From IMG/VR virus record IMGVR_UViG_3300031673_006058, positions 1 to 28,439 of that record: 28,439 nucleotides of DNA. The stretch is one strand, 5' to 3'. The stretch is from a virus. Made by a program: the position numbers and the translations under genes. Positions 19,995 through 27,979 of the stretch are shown here, piece after piece. Positions within the stretch are counted from its first letter, which is position 1; each line of letters opens with the position of its first letter. The notes under the pieces were generated by a model that saw nothing but the letters and a program-made list of their open reading frames with translations, was not told the origin of the DNA and searched no databases.

Positions 19995-20831
19995 TCAGTA
20001 GCCCATGACAGCCTCCTTTTTACGCTGCTTCATTAGCTCCTTGAGACGAGATCTGTATTTGGTCCCAGCAGCCTCTCGGCGATCCAATGCTTTGAGAATT
20101 TCCAAGCTCTCCAGGCGCGATTGACAGCGTGCGATGACGAGCTTCTTTCGGTATTTCTCTGCAAGGTAGACTTTGTACGCTTCCCGATGAGGTGCCAGGT
20201 GGGGTGCAAGCTTCTTGAGGCGTTTCTTGTACTTCTTAGCAAACGCACGCTTGACCTGCAGCTCCGAAGGCATGTCCTCTGTATCGAGCATGGTGATGCC
20301 ACTGAACTCTTTGAAAGGCTCGCGCCACAGGAACCATGCGTACTCTGTGGCGTCCGTCTTGCCATCAGCAGTAAAGGTTGGTCTTCGTGGGGTGATGAGT
20401 GTGTGGGGTGGGTATGCTCTCAACCACTTAGCTCTTTTCCGAGATCCTAGAAAGTTCAATCGAAGCAGCATGGCCACGATGGAGCGTTCACTCTTGCGCC
20501 ACTTGAGCGCCTGCTGGATGAACTCCCACGCCACTGTGTACGGTGGATTTGTGATGATGAGGTCATACGCAGGGTCTGGCTCCGCCAACAGGAAGTCCAC
20601 AGGAGGGTCGTCCTGCAGATCGGTACCAATGACCGAAGCCCAGGGGAACTTGTCTGCGATGATGCGAGAGATGGCACCAGCACCACACGCAGGCTCGAGA
20701 ATGCGAAAGTCCTGCACGGAGTCGTCTTGGAAGTACTCGTGAAGGTGTGGCACGAGGGTCTCCGTGAGCCACTTTGGGGTCTCGTAGAAGTCGTGCTCGT
20801 TGCGTTCTCTGCCTCTGTTGGTGGCGCTCAT
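19995..20831 (-). CDS. DNA adenine/N4-cytosine methyltransferase-like protein
   Basis: A 278-aa class I SAM methyltransferase. DFYETPKWLTETL (14-26) precedes motif I LEPACGAGAIS (45-55). GTDL is the acidic end of strand 2, and IITNPPYTVAWEF (92-104) is the NPPY catalytic motif of amino-methyltransferases. The last 80 residues are a long basic helical tail. It could modify phage DNA to evade host restriction; the target sequence cannot be read from the protein. No restriction partner lies nearby. The start overlaps the helicase stop (ATGA). Confidence 0.82.
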   Translation of the reverse strand: MSATNRGRERNEHDFYETPKWLTETLVPHLHEYFQDDSVQDFRILEPACGAGAISRIIADKFPWASVIGTDLQDDPPVDFLLAEPDPAYDLIITNPPYTVAWEFIQQALKWRKSERSIVAMLLRLNFLGSRKRAKWLRAYPPHTLITPRRPTFTADGKTDATEYAWFLWREPFKEFSGITMLDTEDMPSELQVKRAFAKKYKKRLKKLAPHLAPHREAYKVYLAEKYRKKLVIARCQSRLESLEILKALDRREAAGTKYRSRLKELMKQRKKEAVMGY

Positions 20832-22306
20832 GTCGTCTTCGCTGCCCTGCGTTGCTTTCTGACTGTGACGGGTGTGGCTGTAGCAGCCACAGTAGCTGCT
20901 GTTGCTGCTGGGGGCGCGGCTGCTTGCGCTGGCAGACCTGCAGCTGCTGCCACAGTAGCTGCGGAGGGTAGGTGGCTGATGTCCTCACCACACTCTGGAG
21001 GGACACCCTTCAGCTGGGTGTAAAGCACCATCTTCTCGAAAGCGCTGAAGATGCGCGTTTGGCACTTTGCTGGGCCATTGCGGTTTTTAGCCAAGTACAG
21101 TCTCAGCAGACTTCTCTGACGCTCCTCAGGCGTTGCTGCCAAGGCAACAATCACGTCGGCAATCTGGGCTTTCTTGAGTGAATCTGAAATATGCTCAACA
21201 TCCACAATCTCAGCACCGAGACCAGGACGGTTGACTTGGGTTGCTGTCCACAGGGGGCAATTATTCTCGCCTGCGATGCCTCGAAGGTCACGGAAGATGG
21301 CACCCAAGTCGGCATACTCGTTGTCGTACTTCGTGAGTGGCTTCAGAAGATCCCCGTAGTCAACGATGATCACGTCTGGGTACCAGTCGAAGCTCTCGAG
21401 CTGCTTGAGGTGGCTCTTGATTGTGTTGGTGCTGGCTGACCCTGTTGGGTAGTCCTTGATCACGAGCTTCCCGTCGTAACGTCCCATTTTGGCCATCTTC
21501 TTGCGGAAGATATGACTGGAGGATTTCAGGTCCTGGAAAGGGATCTGTGTCATCGCTGCGTCGTAGCGCGCACCAACTTCCCGCTCATTCAGCTCGAGCG
21601 TGTAGTGTGCAACCCTGTACCCAAGTGTCATCGCGTGCCTGCCTACTTGAGGGAGTGCGATTGACTTACCACCACCGGTACCGCCCATGAAGATACCGAG
21701 CTGCCCATCCTTGAGTCCGCCGCCGAGCCAGGTGTCTACAATTGGGATGCCACAACCTCCGCGTGCTTCCTTGTCGTCACCAACTCGTCGGAGTCGATCA
21801 CGCTCAGCTGCGTCTGCGTACCAGTGTGTTCCAACGTCTAGGTAGTTGGTTCCGACCTGTGATGCGTTGACCACTTGGTCGATGATCTCGTCCCAATCCT
21901 GGTCATCAGCTGTGTCCATGCGTGGAGCACACTCTAGGAAGGCTCTGCGACCTGCCTGCCTTCGGCAGAAGCGAACGATCTCGTTGACGACATAGTGCTG
22001 TGAGTTGACACGGTCGCCAAGTTGGTTGAAGACAGCTGAGTAGTCCTGGATCTGGTTAGGCTTGATACGTCCCGCGCGTGTGGCTTTCTTCAGTTCGTTG
22101 GAAATAACAGGGTGCGGGGTCGGCTGGTCTTGGTTCTGTAGGTAATGGTTGCGGATTGTTTGGAAGAACCAGATGAGGACCTGGTCCTCGAAATACTCGT
22201 CCTTGATGATCTCCACTGCGGTGAGCAGGAAATCGTAACGCTGAACGCACAGACTCAGAATGCCGATCTGGAACTGTCTGTCGAATGGAAATTTGGCCTG
22301 TGACAT
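20828..22306 (-). CDS. DnaB-like replicative helicase
   Basis: A 492-aa helicase. The N-terminal domain (FDRQFQIGILSLCVQRYDFL, then KDEYFEDQVLIWFF) fits phage DnaB-like proteins. Walker A is GGTGGGKS (208-215). LELNEREVGARYDA, Walker B VIIVDYGDLL (D316), ATQVNRPG and DSLKKAQIADVIVAL follow. The last 60 residues are an Ala/Pro-rich tail ending RKQRRAAKTT, encoded by GCTGCx-rich DNA. It would unwind DNA at the fork with the family A polymerase. I see no separate primase or helicase loader in the window. Confidence 0.85.
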   Translation of the reverse strand: MSQAKFPFDRQFQIGILSLCVQRYDFLLTAVEIIKDEYFEDQVLIWFFQTIRNHYLQNQDQPTPHPVISNELKKATRAGRIKPNQIQDYSAVFNQLGDRVNSQHYVVNEIVRFCRRQAGRRAFLECAPRMDTADDQDWDEIIDQVVNASQVGTNYLDVGTHWYADAAERDRLRRVGDDKEARGGCGIPIVDTWLGGGLKDGQLGIFMGGTGGGKSIALPQVGRHAMTLGYRVAHYTLELNEREVGARYDAAMTQIPFQDLKSSSHIFRKKMAKMGRYDGKLVIKDYPTGSASTNTIKSHLKQLESFDWYPDVIIVDYGDLLKPLTKYDNEYADLGAIFRDLRGIAGENNCPLWTATQVNRPGLGAEIVDVEHISDSLKKAQIADVIVALAATPEERQRSLLRLYLAKNRNGPAKCQTRIFSAFEKMVLYTQLKGVPPECGEDISHLPSAATVAAAAGLPAQAAAPPAATAATVAATATPVTVRKQRRAAKTT

Positions 22307-22796: not shown

Positions 22797-23124
22797 TGCG
22801 ATGTTTCTCCACTGCTTTCTTCAAACCAGGAGAGAGTCGCTTCAGAAACTCCATAGTCTCAATCGCACCCATGAGCGCGTAACGTTGCTCAGCAGAAAGC
22901 GCGTGATCACCTTCCATGATCTGGCGCAAGCAACCCTGCATTTCCCCCACCGTTAAATTTATTTTCCCACTCATATCACACCCAAAATCCGCAACGGAAT
23001 CGTAAGTGGAGCCAGGAGCAACCAGATGGCTGCTATCACTGGCCCCACAAGTAACCAAACAAGTAACGGCAAGAGCTGCTATCCGCAGCCGGATGTCGCG
23101 CCACAAGTTGAACACGTAGTGCAT
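22756..23124 (-). CDS. small predicted lipoprotein
   Basis: About 122 aa. A charged start (NLWRDIRLR) precedes a hydrophobic stretch AALAVTCLVTC and GASD, so LVTC fits a lipobox with Cys as the first mature residue. The mature part has two more cysteines (DFGCDMSG, QGCLRQ), a helical middle, and a Pro/Thr tail. The ATG at 23124 lies inside the reductase 3' end; GTG at 23115 or TTG at 23106 are alternatives, and no strong ribosome-binding site separates them. It overlaps the RlpA-like gene by 41 bases. An outer-membrane lipoprotein acting with that protein, or a spanin subunit, is possible; not shown. Confidence 0.55.
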   Translation of the reverse strand: MHYVFNLWRDIRLRIAALAVTCLVTCGASDSSHLVAPGSTYDSVADFGCDMSGKINLTVGEMQGCLRQIMEGDHALSAEQRYALMGAIETMEFLKRLSPGLKKAVEKHRNAVNPGPTNPPTT

Positions 23125-25868
23125 GAGCCAGCGCGTTGTGCTGGGTTTCCGCATCGCGCGCAAGTTAGTCCTTGGTCGCTTCGTTTTGATTCAGTCATAG
23201 TTCCCATTTCCAAAGTCTCAGGTGTTGCCTCCACCTCACCACCACCTTGTCCCAAATACTCAACACCCAAGTATCGGAACAAATAGTCCACTGGTGATTT
23301 TGCAAATCGTATAGCTGCGTTCGACGTGATTCCCTGCGGCTCGAAGTTCATGTACGAGAGCTTCGACACCAGCATGTCGAGGGGCACTCCGTACTGCAAG
23401 CAGAAACTCGTAAGTACACCGATGGTGTCCATGAGTCCAGCAACTGTTGAACCCTCTTTGGCCATCTTGATGAAGACCTCGCCAGGTTTACCGTCTGGGT
23501 ATATTCCTACATGGATGTAGCCCTTGTGTCCGCCGATGTCGAACTTGTGGCGGTGCGCAAAACAATCGTTGGGCAACTTGCGTCGAACCTCAAGGGGATC
23601 TGGTGCAACTTGGCTCTCAACCTCTTTCTTGTCACGAGACTCTATAGGCTGCGTGCGCTTGCTGCCGTCCCGATAGAGTGCGACTGCCTTGAGACCAGAC
23701 TTCCACGCGAGTCGGTAGAGTTCTGAGATGTCCTCCTTGGTCGCGTCGTTGGGAATGTTGCAGGTCTTGCTGATGGCACCAGAAACGAATGGCTGCACTG
23801 CACCCATCATCTGGATATGCGCTTCGGGCCTCATCGACTTCCCACTAACGGGATCGGCAAAGCTTGTTGTGAAGATTTCCTGATGCTGAGACTTCAGGTA
23901 GGGAGCTTGTGCCACGGAGCCGTTCTCGATGACGTACTTGGCCACTTCCTCGATCTCGTCCTCTGGGTATCCAAGGGATCGCATCGCAGCCGCGACACAG
24001 GTATTGAGGATGGTGATGGTGCCACCACCCACAAGCTTCTTCCGCTTGGCCAAGGAAAGCTCTGGCTCGATGCCTGTGGTCTCACAGTCCATCATGAAGC
24101 TAATGGTGCCTGTGGGCGCGAGCACGCTTGCCTGTGCGTTGCGATAGCCTGAACACTCACCAAGGTGCAGCGCGCGATCCCAGTTCTGCTTGGACCACTT
24201 GAGCATGTCACCAAGCTTCGTAGGCTTCTGGTACTGGGATCGGTCCACTGCACTGCGGTGACGAGACACGACACCAAGCATGGCACCCGCGTTGGCACGG
24301 TAGCCGTCAAAGGGTCCTTTGACATCAGCAAGCTCTGCACTGCGTGCGTAGGCGCGTCCAGTAAGCACAGAGGCCAAGAGAGCTGCTTGTGTACGTCCCT
24401 CATCACTGTCGTAGGGAATGCCTTGAGTCATGAGGAATCCACCGAGGTTGGTGTAGCCGAGACCAAGTGTTCGGTACTTCGAGCTGTTCTCCTCAATCTG
24501 CTTCGTTGGGTAGCTCGCTGCATCGACGATGATGTCCATCGCGGTGATGAGCACGTCAATCGTGTGCGTGTATGCGTTGATGTCGAAGCTGCCGTCTGGC
24601 TTCAGGAACTTGATGAGGTTGATGCTGGCGAGGTTGCAAGCTGTGTCATCGAGGAACATGTACTCGCTGCACGGATTGCTTCCATTGATGCGACCGTTCG
24701 CAGGAGCGGTGTGCATGTCGTTGATGGTCGTATCGAATTGCAGACCAGGATCACCACAGAAATGCGCAGACTCGCAAATGTCGCTCCACAACGCACGAGC
24801 TTGGATGGTCTCGAGCACTGTCTTGCCGTCGCGAGCCATGAGGTCCCAAGTGCCATCGCTTTCCACAGCAGCCATGAACTTGTCGGTGCACCGAACGGAA
24901 TGGTTGGCGTTCTGGAAAGGAACCATCGAGTAGGCTCCCCAGCGCTCGCGGAAGTCACCACTGAAGCCTGCGTCCACCAGCGCTTGTGCTGCCTTCTCGC
25001 TGTGCTGCTTGCATCCTACGAACTCGAAGATGTCTCCATGGTCTGCGTTGAGGATGGCCATCTTTGCTGCGCGACGTGTACCGCCTCCGCTCTTGATGGC
25101 ACCTGCGTTGAAGTCATCCTTGGCAATGAAGGGAACTGGTCCCGATGCAAAGCCACCGTTGGAAAGCCCCTCCCTAGACGACCGAAGGGCAGAGTAGTTC
25201 ACACCGGAACCGCTACCGCCCTTGTAAAGTTTGCCTTCTGTGATGCTGAGACCGAGGATGCTCTCCATCGTGTCGTCCAGCGAGTTGATGAAGCATGCTG
25301 AGCATTGCTCCTCACGCATGCGCCCTTGCTTGGTGCCTACGTTGAACCAGACTGGCGAGTTGAACGCGGCCATCTGATTGACGAGGATGTAGCAAAGCTC
25401 ATTGCGGAAGGTCTTCGCGGGGTCGGACTCGTTCCACTGCGTCGAGCCGTTGGAGACTGGGTGGTGCGGGAAGTAGTCCTGCTTGATTCCCCAGTTGGCA
25501 ATCGTGTTGGCAACGCGAGAAATCATCTCCCGCACGGAGGTCTCCCTAAGAAGAGTTCCGTCGTCCTGCTCGACGTGCCTGAAGTATTTCTCGGCGACGA
25601 GTGACACACAGTTCTGTGACCAAGTTTTCGGGAACTCCAAATCGTCCGCCTCGAAAACCTTCTCACCTGTCGTTGGATTCACAATCGAAGCATCGCGGTT
25701 TTCCCATTCCACGGAGTCGAAAGGATCGTCATGACCTTGTGTGAAAAAATCTATGACATGAGCGTGCGACTCTGCTGGTGTTGGTTCCCGACCAACCTTC
25801 CCCGCTGCATCGCGTACTTCACTGCCGTTACCATCGTCCAAATTCCCTCGACGCCATGATTCAATCAT
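23079..25868 (-). CDS. nrdJ: class II (B12-dependent) ribonucleotide reductase
   Basis: A 929-aa NrdJ-type reductase converting ribonucleotides to deoxyribonucleotides. Seen: SPVWFNVG, CSACFINSLDDTMESIL, GSGSGVNYSALRSSREGLSN, GTRRAAKMAILNADHGDIFE, the active-site block NPCSEYMFLDDTACNLASIN near residue 397, and LAPTGTISFMMDCETTGIEP. The C-terminus ends in a Cys-rich zinc ribbon (TCARCGN, CTTCSTCG, GCG), usual for this class as the re-reduction tail. The enzyme needs adenosylcobalamin but no oxygen or small subunit, so it works aerobically or anaerobically. The start overlaps the initiator gene stop (ATGA). Confidence 0.93.
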   Translation of the reverse strand: MIESWRRGNLDDGNGSEVRDAAGKVGREPTPAESHAHVIDFFTQGHDDPFDSVEWENRDASIVNPTTGEKVFEADDLEFPKTWSQNCVSLVAEKYFRHVEQDDGTLLRETSVREMISRVANTIANWGIKQDYFPHHPVSNGSTQWNESDPAKTFRNELCYILVNQMAAFNSPVWFNVGTKQGRMREEQCSACFINSLDDTMESILGLSITEGKLYKGGSGSGVNYSALRSSREGLSNGGFASGPVPFIAKDDFNAGAIKSGGGTRRAAKMAILNADHGDIFEFVGCKQHSEKAAQALVDAGFSGDFRERWGAYSMVPFQNANHSVRCTDKFMAAVESDGTWDLMARDGKTVLETIQARALWSDICESAHFCGDPGLQFDTTINDMHTAPANGRINGSNPCSEYMFLDDTACNLASINLIKFLKPDGSFDINAYTHTIDVLITAMDIIVDAASYPTKQIEENSSKYRTLGLGYTNLGGFLMTQGIPYDSDEGRTQAALLASVLTGRAYARSAELADVKGPFDGYRANAGAMLGVVSRHRSAVDRSQYQKPTKLGDMLKWSKQNWDRALHLGECSGYRNAQASVLAPTGTISFMMDCETTGIEPELSLAKRKKLVGGGTITILNTCVAAAMRSLGYPEDEIEEVAKYVIENGSVAQAPYLKSQHQEIFTTSFADPVSGKSMRPEAHIQMMGAVQPFVSGAISKTCNIPNDATKEDISELYRLAWKSGLKAVALYRDGSKRTQPIESRDKKEVESQVAPDPLEVRRKLPNDCFAHRHKFDIGGHKGYIHVGIYPDGKPGEVFIKMAKEGSTVAGLMDTIGVLTSFCLQYGVPLDMLVSKLSYMNFEPQGITSNAAIRFAKSPVDYLFRYLGVEYLGQGGGEVEATPETLEMGTMTESKRSDQGLTCARCGNPAQRAGSCTTCSTCGATSGCG

Positions 25869-27283
25869 TCTTCAAACGCTCCCTCTGCTTTTAGTTGTTG
25901 ATAGACCGGACGAGCCTCAAGCCAATCCTGGTCAAAGCTGATGTCATCATTTCGCAACGCGAACACCCGAATGACATCAACTTCAGTGACTTCGTAGTTT
26001 CTCATGAGCGCCTTCAGTATGCCATCACAGCGCTCGAATCTATGGCGATCAGCGACGGGTGCCTGCACGACCCGAGTGACAACGTTAGTCGCTATACTGG
26101 TGCGCCCAGACGCAACGCATTTCCGGTACGATTCCCAACGCTCAGTGGAGTACTGGCTTGCAATTTCCCAAAGCTTGGGAGCACGGGATTTCTTGATCTC
26201 GAGCCAGTAGAATTGTGCCTTGATGAACTCAACGTACTCGGCACCAGCAGCCTCAGCGAGCTGTGCAGCCTTCACGTAGAGCTTGTACATCTTGTGCTCG
26301 GGCTTGAAATGGTCGGGCTTTACGAAGCCACTATTCTTGAGATTGCGCTCAGCTGAGATGCCATAGTACCGATACACAGCACGCTCGAGCGCTCTAGCGA
26401 AGCCGACCATGCGAGCATTGTTCGGACTCTGTGTGTGGAGTGACCGCTTGCCGACAAGTTTGCGTGCGTTCTCTCGAAGATCTCCGAGTCGGTCTTCCCG
26501 ACGAGACTCCTTAGCCATTGTGGTATCGAGTTTGCTTCGCGGGCGCGCGCGGGGAATGTTTCGATCTGTACCCAAATGATCCAGATCAATTGAATGATCA
26601 GAATAATCAATATTAGATCTATTAGGGTATTTGCGAATCCCTTCGGGATTCTTAATACAAACCGCGCGCGGACTTTCTGAAAAACTAGAATCAGCACCGA
26701 AAAGGGAGAAAGAAGATGCTGATTCTAGAAATTGAGAATCATCCATCGGACACTCAAAAAGAATCGTATTTTCGGTTAATTGGGAACTTTCTAGATTCTT
26801 AGAAAGTTGGTCTGAGCCTCCTCGATTTGATCTTTCTAGGTTCTTAGAAAGTTCGTCATGAAGTGTTCTTTCTGAAAAGCTAGAATCAGTGCTTCGAGTG
26901 GCATCTGAACTTTCTAGATTCGTAGAAAGATCATGGTCTGCACCGGATTCCTCAACGGGATCGACGGGAGCCATGGCTCGGGTGAGAACAGAAAGACTAC
27001 GCCGAGGACTGGCCAGGTGTTTAGGGTTCTCGTCACCTTTGACCCAACCAGCCCTCAGCGTCTTCAATTCCGCACTGCCAGTGGCAGTAAGTTGGTAGCC
27101 TGCATGAGCTTGTCTGAAAAGACCAGCAGTGATGCCTTGGGAGATCACTCCCTGACAATTGTGACTGACTCCGAGCAGTGCTTGAACGTCGTGCTGGGTA
27201 AATGGCCCGCTCCACCTTCGTTTGGAAAACTCGCCAAGTAGCGACTCCAACAGACTTCCAAAGGTTTCAACGCACGCTGCCAT
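25865..27283 (-). CDS. putative replication initiator (lambda O-like architecture)
   Basis: About 472 aa from the ATG at 27283, with GGGAGG 9-10 bases upstream; a TTG directly before it is the alternative. Residues about 15-75 form a winged HTH (GPFTQHDVQALLGVSHNCQG, then AGLFRQAHAGYQLTATG). Residues about 85-235 are a Ser/Asp/Asn-rich linker with repeated SKNLESS/STNLESS and SSFSE units, encoded by palindromic DNA repeats and an AT-rich stretch. The C-terminal part (MVGFARALERAVYRYYGISA, then FKPEHKMYKLYVKAAQLAE) is helical and unrecognised. The order wHTH, repeat-encoded linker, C-terminal domain is that of lambda O, whose gene contains the origin. A transcription regulator is the alternative. 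Confidence 0.6.
   Translation of the reverse strand: MAACVETFGSLLESLLGEFSKRRWSGPFTQHDVQALLGVSHNCQGVISQGITAGLFRQAHAGYQLTATGSAELKTLRAGWVKGDENPKHLASPRRSLSVLTRAMAPVDPVEESGADHDLSTNLESSDATRSTDSSFSERTLHDELSKNLERSNRGGSDQLSKNLESSQLTENTILFECPMDDSQFLESASSFSLFGADSSFSESPRAVCIKNPEGIRKYPNRSNIDYSDHSIDLDHLGTDRNIPRARPRSKLDTTMAKESRREDRLGDLRENARKLVGKRSLHTQSPNNARMVGFARALERAVYRYYGISAERNLKNSGFVKPDHFKPEHKMYKLYVKAAQLAEAAGAEYVEFIKAQFYWLEIKKSRAPKLWEIASQYSTERWESYRKCVASGRTSIATNVVTRVVQAPVADRHRFERCDGILKALMRNYEVTEVDVIRVFALRNDDISFDQDWLEARPVYQQLKAEGAFEE
26575..26640. other. AT-rich stretch, candidate DNA unwinding element
   Basis: In 26581-26630 I count 14 G/C in 50 bases, clearly lower than the surrounding sequence, with GATC and AATAATCAATATT-like runs. 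It lies downstream (in gene direction) of the palindromic repeats inside the initiator gene, as the AT-rich region does in lambda ori. Confidence 0.45.
26673..26694. repeat. 22-base direct repeat, copy nearest the AT-rich stretch
   Basis: CTTTCTGAAAAACTAGAATC and two following bases. It matches 26868-26889 with one difference (A/G at the twelfth base). It shares the CTTTCT half-site with the palindromic iterons. It encodes SSFSE on the minus strand. Confidence 0.6.
26785..26808. repeat. palindromic iteron, copy 1
   Basis: Perfect 9-base arms AACTTTCTA and TAGAAAGTT around GATTCT. Copies 2 and 3 lie at 26830-26853 and 26908-26931, offset by 45 and 78 bases, so in frame with the host gene. Confidence 0.65.
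26830..26853. repeat. palindromic iteron, copy 2
   Basis: Arms CTTTCTA and TAGAAAG (7 bases perfect) around GGTTCT; otherwise the same as copy 1. Confidence 0.65.
26868..26889. repeat. 22-base direct repeat, second copy
   Basis: Same unit as 26673-26694 with one base different; lies between palindromic copies 2 and 3. Confidence 0.6.
26908..26931. repeat. palindromic iteron, copy 3
   Basis: Arms CTTTCTA and TAGAAAG around GATTCG; the same 24-base unit as copies 1 and 2 with a few differences at the right end. Confidence 0.65.
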
Positions 27284-27347: not shown

Positions 27348-27376
27348 AAACTACTCGGACACACACACGGAGTCAA
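27348..27376 (-). promoter_or_regulatory. candidate sigma-70-type promoter for the initiator gene
   Basis: TTGACT (27371-27376), a 17-base spacer, then TAGTTT (27348-27353). The -35 is good (5 of 6) and the -10 weak (3 of 6). It lies in the 171-base gap before the initiator, one of only two sizeable non-coding gaps in the window. Confidence 0.35.
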
Positions 27377-27441: not shown

Positions 27442-27450
27442 TTATTCACA
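27442..27450 (+). promoter_or_regulatory. DnaA box TTATTCACA
   Basis: Exact match to TTATNCACA in the gap between the J-domain gene and the initiator gene, 32 bases (about three helical turns) from a second exact box in the same orientation. Confidence 0.45.
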
Positions 27451-27454
27451 CCTT

Positions 27455-27979
27455 CTAAGTCTTATCCTCATGTTTATCCACAGGCTGTGGATTGACGAGG
27501 GATCGCTCTTTGCGAATCTGATTGTATGCGTCGGCGAGCTTGAGGAACTTCTGTGCCTCGCCACCAACATCTGGATGGTGAATCCTAGCAAGTGCCTTGT
27601 ACGCTGCTGAAACCACCTCCATCGGGGCCTCCTCGGTCACACAGAGAATTTCGTAGGGTGTGCCTGTGGTGGACTTTTCCGCTACGAACAGACTTCCAGT
27701 GTTGGGTACCTGTGCCCCTGCGGCTCTGAGCTGCCACGTCGTTGGCAGATCTGCCCAATCCACGTGTCCGTAGTCCCGACGAGCCCACGCCACAACCTGT
27801 GGGAGCCAATCCCAGTGGAATTCCCAGAGTCCAACCTCTTCGTTGAACCTGCGCCTGTTGTAGGGCCTGATGCCTGCCTTCAGCGTGGCGATGAGCGGCC
27901 CGCGAGCACCATGCAGACGCACCCAGACGGGCTCGTGAGCTGTCAGGACGAGACTTGGGCCTGTGTCTGCCATGTCCAT
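27455..27979 (-). CDS. J-domain (DnaJ-like) protein
   Basis: A 174-aa protein. Residues 108-157 are a J domain: TPYEILCVTEEAPMEVVSAA, then ALARIHHPDVGGEAQKFLKL, with the essential HPD at 135-137. It would stimulate host DnaK. Residues 18-70 (VWVRLHGARGPLIATLKAGI, RRRFNEEVGLWEFHW) have the alternating pattern of HARP-like modules, in which a lysine-rich strand is followed by a W-x-F strand; that is pattern recognition only. No Gly/Phe or zinc region is present. The start shares one base with the preceding stop. Position next to the initiator recalls the need for DnaJ/DnaK in lambda replication. Confidence 0.8.
   Translation of the reverse strand: MDMADTGPSLVLTAHEPVWVRLHGARGPLIATLKAGIRPYNRRRFNEEVGLWEFHWDWLPQVVAWARRDYGHVDWADLPTTWQLRAAGAQVPNTGSLFVAEKSTTGTPYEILCVTEEAPMEVVSAAYKALARIHHPDVGGEAQKFLKLADAYNQIRKERSLVNPQPVDKHEDKT
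27474..27482 (+). promoter_or_regulatory. DnaA box TTATCCACA within a 17-base palindrome
   Basis: Exact consensus. It overlaps the perfect palindrome ATCCACAGGCTGTGGAT (27476-27492, 8-base arms around one base). It lies in the 3' end of the J-domain gene. Confidence 0.45.

Follow-up and report, generated by a model that had tools for sequence, protein, structure and literature searches.

Does a phage gene for a 472-aa protein carry, within its own coding sequence, the origin from which the genome is replicated? To our knowledge, most virulent phages from the environment have no mapped origin. The DNA that we analyzed, called the window, is an entire stretch of 28,439 bases, an IMG/VR record. 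An earlier note, written from the letters of this DNA, had described palindromic iterons, a second repeat and an AT-rich block inside one gene with an N-terminal winged helix-turn-helix (HTH) domain, organized like gene O of phage lambda.

A gene with iterons, AT-rich DNA and a winged-helix model

The gene lies between a J-domain gene and a class II ribonucleotide reductase gene (23079-25868), and its start codon is likely the ATG at 27283 rather than the TTG at 27376. Its product has a winged-helix N terminus, a linker that bears the repeats, and a C-terminal domain that is helical and conserved. The order proposed in the earlier note, in which winged HTH, iterons, AT-rich DNA and C-terminal domain follow each other as in lambda gene O, is borne out by the coordinates (Table 1). 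A second contig of the same phage, from another record (L002/L011), has identical DNA, with no change.

Table 1. Features of the candidate origin locus, with positions in the window
Feature	Position	Strand	Basis or remark
Putative initiator gene P0001	25865-27283	-	Open frame, 472 aa; syntenic relatives G001-G004
C-terminal helical domain (about residues 277-472)	25868-26455	-	pLDDT mostly 65-92, short weaker stretches; conserved in five phages
Alternating CG run, one flank of AT block	26543-26551		Joint longest CG run in record
AT-rich block, candidate unwinding element	26553-26660		Record's least stable 60-/80-bp stretches start at 26573/26553
Five GATC sites (26563, 26578, 26584, 26596, 26616)	26563-26619		Densest cluster in record
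Alternating CG run, other flank of AT block	26663-26670		CG-run scan
Second repeat type, copy 1, CTGATTCTAGTTTTTCAGAAAG	26673-26694	-	22-mer
Inverted partial copy of second repeat, TGCTGATTCTAGAAATTGAGAA	26717-26738	+	Encodes a different peptide, QFLESA
Palindromic iteron 1, AACTTTCTAGATTCTTAGAAAGTT	26785-26808		24-mer; 9-bp arms, arm match 9/9, self-complementarity 18/24
Palindromic iteron 2, ATCTTTCTAGGTTCTTAGAAAGTT	26830-26853		24-mer; 9-bp arms, arm match 9/9, self-complementarity 18/24
Second repeat type, copy 2, CTGATTCTAGCTTTTCAGAAAG	26868-26889	-	22-mer, between iterons 2 and 3
Palindromic iteron 3, AACTTTCTAGATTCGTAGAAAGAT	26908-26931		24-mer; 9-bp arms, arm match 8/9, self-complementarity 16/24
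N-terminal winged-helix domain (about residues 1-86)	27025-27283	-	AlphaFold2; VIA-align; kept in L004, L007
DnaA-box-like cluster, TTATTCACA, TTATCCTCA, TTATCCACA	27442-27482	+	Strongest such cluster in record
J-domain protein gene, directly upstream of putative initiator gene	27455-27979	-	Pfam DnaJ, E 1.6e-7

AlphaFold2 models of residues 1-104 from three sequences revealed helix, helix, helix, two strands and helix, the topology of a winged helix, with pLDDT about 75-88 over residues 11-80. These models support the winged HTH of the earlier note. In VIA-align, TubR (Z 9.6 over 76 residues, 2.1 A), AspA (Z 9.2 over 83 residues, 3.1 A) and MarR-type DNA-binding proteins were tied at Z 9-9.6, and a lambda O structure was absent among the matches listed for this domain. 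Foldseek and VIA-align searches with the full model yielded no match worth naming. The C-terminal domain, searched as part of that model, likewise had no fold match and may nevertheless have a known fold. No Pfam or PHROG family matched the protein convincingly, the best being Phage_Gene33 (E 0.076) and phrog_13510 (E 0.009). The Phage_Gene33 match (PF25742) covers residues 252-304 and is weak (E 0.035-0.076; score 14.8 bits, cut-off 27; seen in one of five family members). The 472-aa protein represents a family without earlier recognition and matches no described protein family.

The three 24-base palindromes were confirmed, each with 9-bp arms around a 6-nt center that is not itself palindromic. 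A single palindrome of this grade is not rare, since the window has 14 24-mers at 18/24 or above. Occurrence of the iteron sequence in triplicate, in contrast, is rare (0 expected, from 100 shuffles), and the remainder of the window contains no copy. Iteron spacing is irregular (45 and 78 bp), and the peptides encoded by the three palindromes are similar (LSKNLESS). The 22-base repeat was likewise recovered in two copies (95% identity; 0 expected). When 2.9 million viral contigs were searched for the palindrome core, it was found in the same phage and in one unrelated AT-rich contig, whose single copy we judged to be due to chance.

The block at 26581-26630 is 72% AT, as reported earlier. In addition, at lengths of 60, 80, 120, and 200 bp, the stretch of lowest duplex stability in the entire window record falls inside this gene.

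Conservation of the locus in five phages

A search with the reductase, followed by a profile search, identified four phage contigs that carry relatives of the 472-aa protein with 24-29% identity: G001 (171,494 bp), G002 (57,798 bp), G003 (46,814 bp), and G004 (47,124 bp). G001, G002, and G004 are also labeled L004, L007, and L010, respectively; completeness is established for no record. Other searches added little to the family. The window protein had no relatives among 50,697 phage records, one scan of genome contigs detected no relatives of the gene, the P0002 and L009 queries retrieved only a weak C-terminal relative (MT121964), a J-domain alignment used as query returned the same phages only, and the helicase relatives L013-L090 contained no additional family members.

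Gene order is collinear between the window and G001 from the J-domain gene to the large terminase. In all five records, the J-domain gene is the sole one and lies directly upstream of the putative initiator gene. A replicative (DnaB-like) helicase gene lies downstream in the window, G001, G003, and G004, where the record reaches that far. G001 and G002 keep the full architecture of winged helix, linker and C-terminal domain. G003 and G004 keep the C-terminal domain, the AT block and GATC-rich repeats, and their long N-terminal part has no recognizable winged helix. The C-terminal domain also has remote relatives on its own (hhalign probability 96.9), found in a phage of the human gut and in two further contigs. 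These are stand-alone proteins of 275-295 aa (L118:7682-8569, L122:4422-5282, L123:4428-5255) that share this domain, lack notable repeats, and sit between a primase gene and a helicase-like gene. The L118 protein, the one searched, matched no named PHROG family. The recurrence of the domain between primase and helicase-like genes points to a role in replication.

Several other observations concern these contigs. In G004, the region of the 775-aa ORF from the AT block to the C-terminal domain also contains two protein-like open frames in a different reading frame (L010:6709-7017 and L010:7021-7947), which had no match in a PHROG search. Possibly the linker is overprinted, or the long frame is non-coding there. 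As read from translations, intein-like insertions (L004:5833-9561, L004:12125-15250, L007:9318-11687, L009:3353-5053) interrupt ribonucleotide reductase, DNA polymerase, and a DNA methyltransferase in the relatives. In the window, a DNA methyltransferase gene (19995-20831; phrog_799) adjoins the helicase gene, and its product might act on the GATC sites of the candidate origin region.

Base composition at the putative initiator gene recurs across the family. The most AT-rich 100 bases of each record fall in this gene in 5/5 records (tied in G001 and G002). The minimum of duplex stability is also in the gene in the window, G001 (120 and 200 bp), and G003 and G004 (60-120 bp). In G002, where the gene is at the contig end, the stability minimum is elsewhere in the record, though the AT maximum within the gene ties. 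The densest GATC cluster of the record lies in this gene in four of the five. These clusters are not in excess under a strict codon null (see below) and largely follow from the codons used; as a selected DNA feature they are weakly supported. Alternating CG runs reach their record-wide maximum length in this gene in G001, G002, and G004, with a tie in the window (4/5), and paired CG runs flank the AT block both in the window and in G004 (33132 and 33298). Such runs could be a clamp or a protein site. The GATC and CG points were noticed post hoc and carry less weight.

Linker repeats, direct or inverted, occur at the same position in three of the five phages (window, G001, and G002), with different sequences. 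The G001 linker contains three 21-nt repeats spaced by 42 and 63 nt, which are few and not clearly palindromic. In G002, a 25-nt repeat with inverted ends occurs twice and alternates with a 15-nt repeat, both with 84-nt spacing. The core AATGCTACNTTA is confined to the putative initiator gene in G001 and G002.

We compared the linkers with two nulls. In the strict null, the linker's own synonymous codons were permuted; in the softer null, the peptide was kept and codons were drawn from genome usage. Under the strict null, the direct-repeat count was reached in 5, 105, and 0 of 2000 trials for the window, L004, and L007, respectively, and the inverted-repeat count in 0, 8, and 1. Under the genome-codon null, the inverted-repeat count was reached at most once in 2000 draws in the window, L007, L009, and L010, and 49 times in L004, and AT content lay above all 2000 draws in the window, L004, and L010. 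Inverted repeats exceed synonymous-codon expectation in every linker. The linker repeats thus seem to serve as DNA, beyond the peptide that they encode. The earlier note had proposed that the palindromes be compared with synonymous drift in related phages: the linker repeats go beyond synonymous chance, but the particular palindromes are not conserved, and each relative has its own repeats. One motif, CTGATTCTRGCTTT, is common to the window and L007, on opposite strands relative to coding, and the best opposite-strand shared stretch was matched in 12/300 strict-null trials, which is suggestive, not firm.

Strand asymmetry and the neighboring J-domain gene

Third-codon GC skew was determined per gene in stretches with a single gene direction, and change points were evaluated with 2000 gene-order permutations. 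The best change point fell exactly at the putative initiator gene in G001 (0/2000), G004 (1/2000), and G003 (88/2000), and in all three the more G-rich side was the downstream coding strand. In a simple base-level test, the distance of the change point from the midpoint of the gene was 1.3 kb in G001, 3.0 kb in G004, and 6.4 kb in G003. The skew evidence excludes the window and G002, in which the gene is too near the record end for a fair test; in G002, the best change point was elsewhere and not significant. Of the GC-skew check put forward earlier, the change at the gene stands for three relatives, but the whole-record cumulative minimum of G001 is elsewhere, at 149 kb. Since gene direction also flips there, we limited the analysis to one-direction stretches. 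The switch may sit near the boundary between virion-type and replication genes, where transcription could contribute. As a shift in gene class there could strengthen the signal, we regard the switch as supporting, not decisive.

The protein encoded upstream matches the DnaJ profile (31.8 bits against a cut-off of 27.8) and contains the HPD motif in IHHPDVGG; its J domain is C-terminal. Initiation of lambda replication requires host DnaJ and DnaK. One phage J-domain protein, Rki of RB43, is able to engage host DnaK and stabilizes sigma-32 (PMC3486835). The J domain of Rki is N-terminal and its locus consists of unknown genes, whereas the protein described here always lies beside the putative initiator. 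Given the need of lambda for DnaJ and DnaK and the action of Rki with DnaK, the J-domain gene is a plausible partner in initiation.

The window also contains a cluster of DnaA-box-like sequences, and a pair as close as that in the window arose in 0/300 simulated sequences. No such cluster was found in G001-G004, so DnaA boxes were dropped as a shared origin feature.

A putative initiator and competing explanations

We consider it quite probable that the gene at 25865-27283 is a phage replication initiator that contains its own, bidirectional origin and acts much as lambda gene O does. No other explanation accounts for the data nearly as simply as a bidirectional origin within the gene of its initiator. 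The winged-helix N terminus, probably as a dimer, would bind the palindromic iterons, from which the protein's own linker is translated. The assembled complex would then strain the adjoining AT-rich block until it opens. The C-terminal domain, for which we infer a contact to helicase or replisome, would load the phage DnaB-like helicase (20828-22306) on the opened strands, and replication would proceed bidirectionally from the opened block. The upstream J-domain protein may recruit host Hsp70 and remodel the initiation complex, as DnaJ and DnaK do for lambda. The position of the repeats, conserved while their sequence changes, is consistent with an origin, as judged from sequence comparison. 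Against this reading stand the lack of a recognizable winged helix in G003 and G004, the few repeats of G001, and the displaced stability minimum of G002.

Ori-lambda lies inside gene O. It combines a 39-bp AT-rich stretch with four iterons, each an 18-bp inverted repeat; every iteron is bound by a dimer of O, whose C-terminal part makes contact with P (PMC6022878, PMC7466680). Shared with the locus described here are the placement of the origin, in our case a candidate, within the initiator gene and inverted-repeat iterons that encode a linker (PMC6022878, PMC7466680), as well as an AT-rich block that separates the iterons from the C-terminal domain, and N-terminal DNA-binding and C-terminal partner domains (in the window, predicted). 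However, the window iterons are 24 bp long and irregularly spaced, where lambda has four 18-bp inverted repeats; a P gene was not seen in the phage, which has its own J-domain gene next door; and the replisome is T4-like, with a PolA-type polymerase, a DnaB-like helicase, and gp32-, UvsX-, and gp46/47-like genes. A six-frame search with Phage_rep_O (PF04492) revealed no match in the window or G001-G004 (the control search found E. coli). Since PF04492 is absent from five records, the iterons differ, and a P gene was not seen, we call the protein a putative new-family initiator with a lambda-like arrangement. Iteron origins with GATC sites and DnaA boxes are also known from the P1 oriR type. 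Such origins resemble the locus in their iterons, AT-rich block and GATC sites, which form a cluster here, and the window also has a cluster of DnaA-box-like sequences, but here the putative initiator belongs to no known plasmid Rep family (no Pfam match), the candidate origin is inside the gene, and DnaA boxes were not found in the relatives of the window.

Could the repeats be a partition site? The winged helix would then be a centromere-binding protein that binds the iterons to segregate a plasmid-like prophage or anchor the genome, with the C-terminal domain contacting a segregation motor. TubR and AspA, which bind iteron centromeres, are among the best structural matches of the N terminus and have a winged helix of like topology, but this resemblance is structural only, and MarR-type regulators tie with them at Z about 9. 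Moreover, no ParA-, ParM-, or TubZ-like gene or other segregation motor was found in the scanned genes of the window, itself a fragmentary record, the neighbors are replisome genes, and a centromere would not predict the skew switch or the AT maximum. We therefore find this explanation very improbable. We give as little credence to an autoregulated transcription factor that would act on transcription of the phage, in the manner of SPO1 gp33 for instance, with the repeats as operators. Regulators are frequent among winged-helix proteins, and the weak match to Phage_Gene33 fits this idea; however, that match is under the Pfam cut-off in a single family member, the repeats lie deep in the coding region, away from a promoter and nowhere else in the window, and an operator leaves the AT maximum and the skew switch unexplained.

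It is slightly less probable again that a low-complexity Ser/Asn/Glu linker gave rise to the repeats incidentally, with no role for them as DNA. Such linkers easily drift and duplicate, and the palindromes do encode similar peptides, but the synonymous-codon nulls reject this explanation for both direct and inverted repeats in the window and L007. In addition, the inverted copy of the second repeat encodes another peptide, and the composition maxima recur in five phages. The small terminase gene is a frequent location of pac sites in headful phages, and such sites can contain repeats, which would allow for a packaging or recombination site within a DNA-binding gene. This we regard as the least probable explanation of all: in the window and G001, about 18-20 kb separate the gene from that for the large terminase, the gene sits among genes of DNA metabolism, and a pac site predicts no skew switch there.

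Returning to a replication initiator with an embedded origin, its ancestry can be considered. Tentatively, and with some doubt, we suggest that these proteins form a separate family, unrelated to lambda O, that independently reached a gene-embedded origin. The family would have its own layout (an AT block between alternating CG runs in GATC-rich DNA) and a dedicated J-domain protein in an otherwise T4-like replisome, and one branch would have lost or moved the iteron-binding domain and kept the DNA elements.

From the sequences of five divergent phages one can read the position of a candidate origin, its protein family, and its DNA layout. This legibility yields a search rule: find the J-domain gene, then the initiator gene, then the AT maximum and the skew switch. 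Should the family prove independent of lambda O, an origin within the initiator gene would be a design that arose more than once, and the adjacent J-domain gene would make the chaperone step of initiation testable outside lambda.
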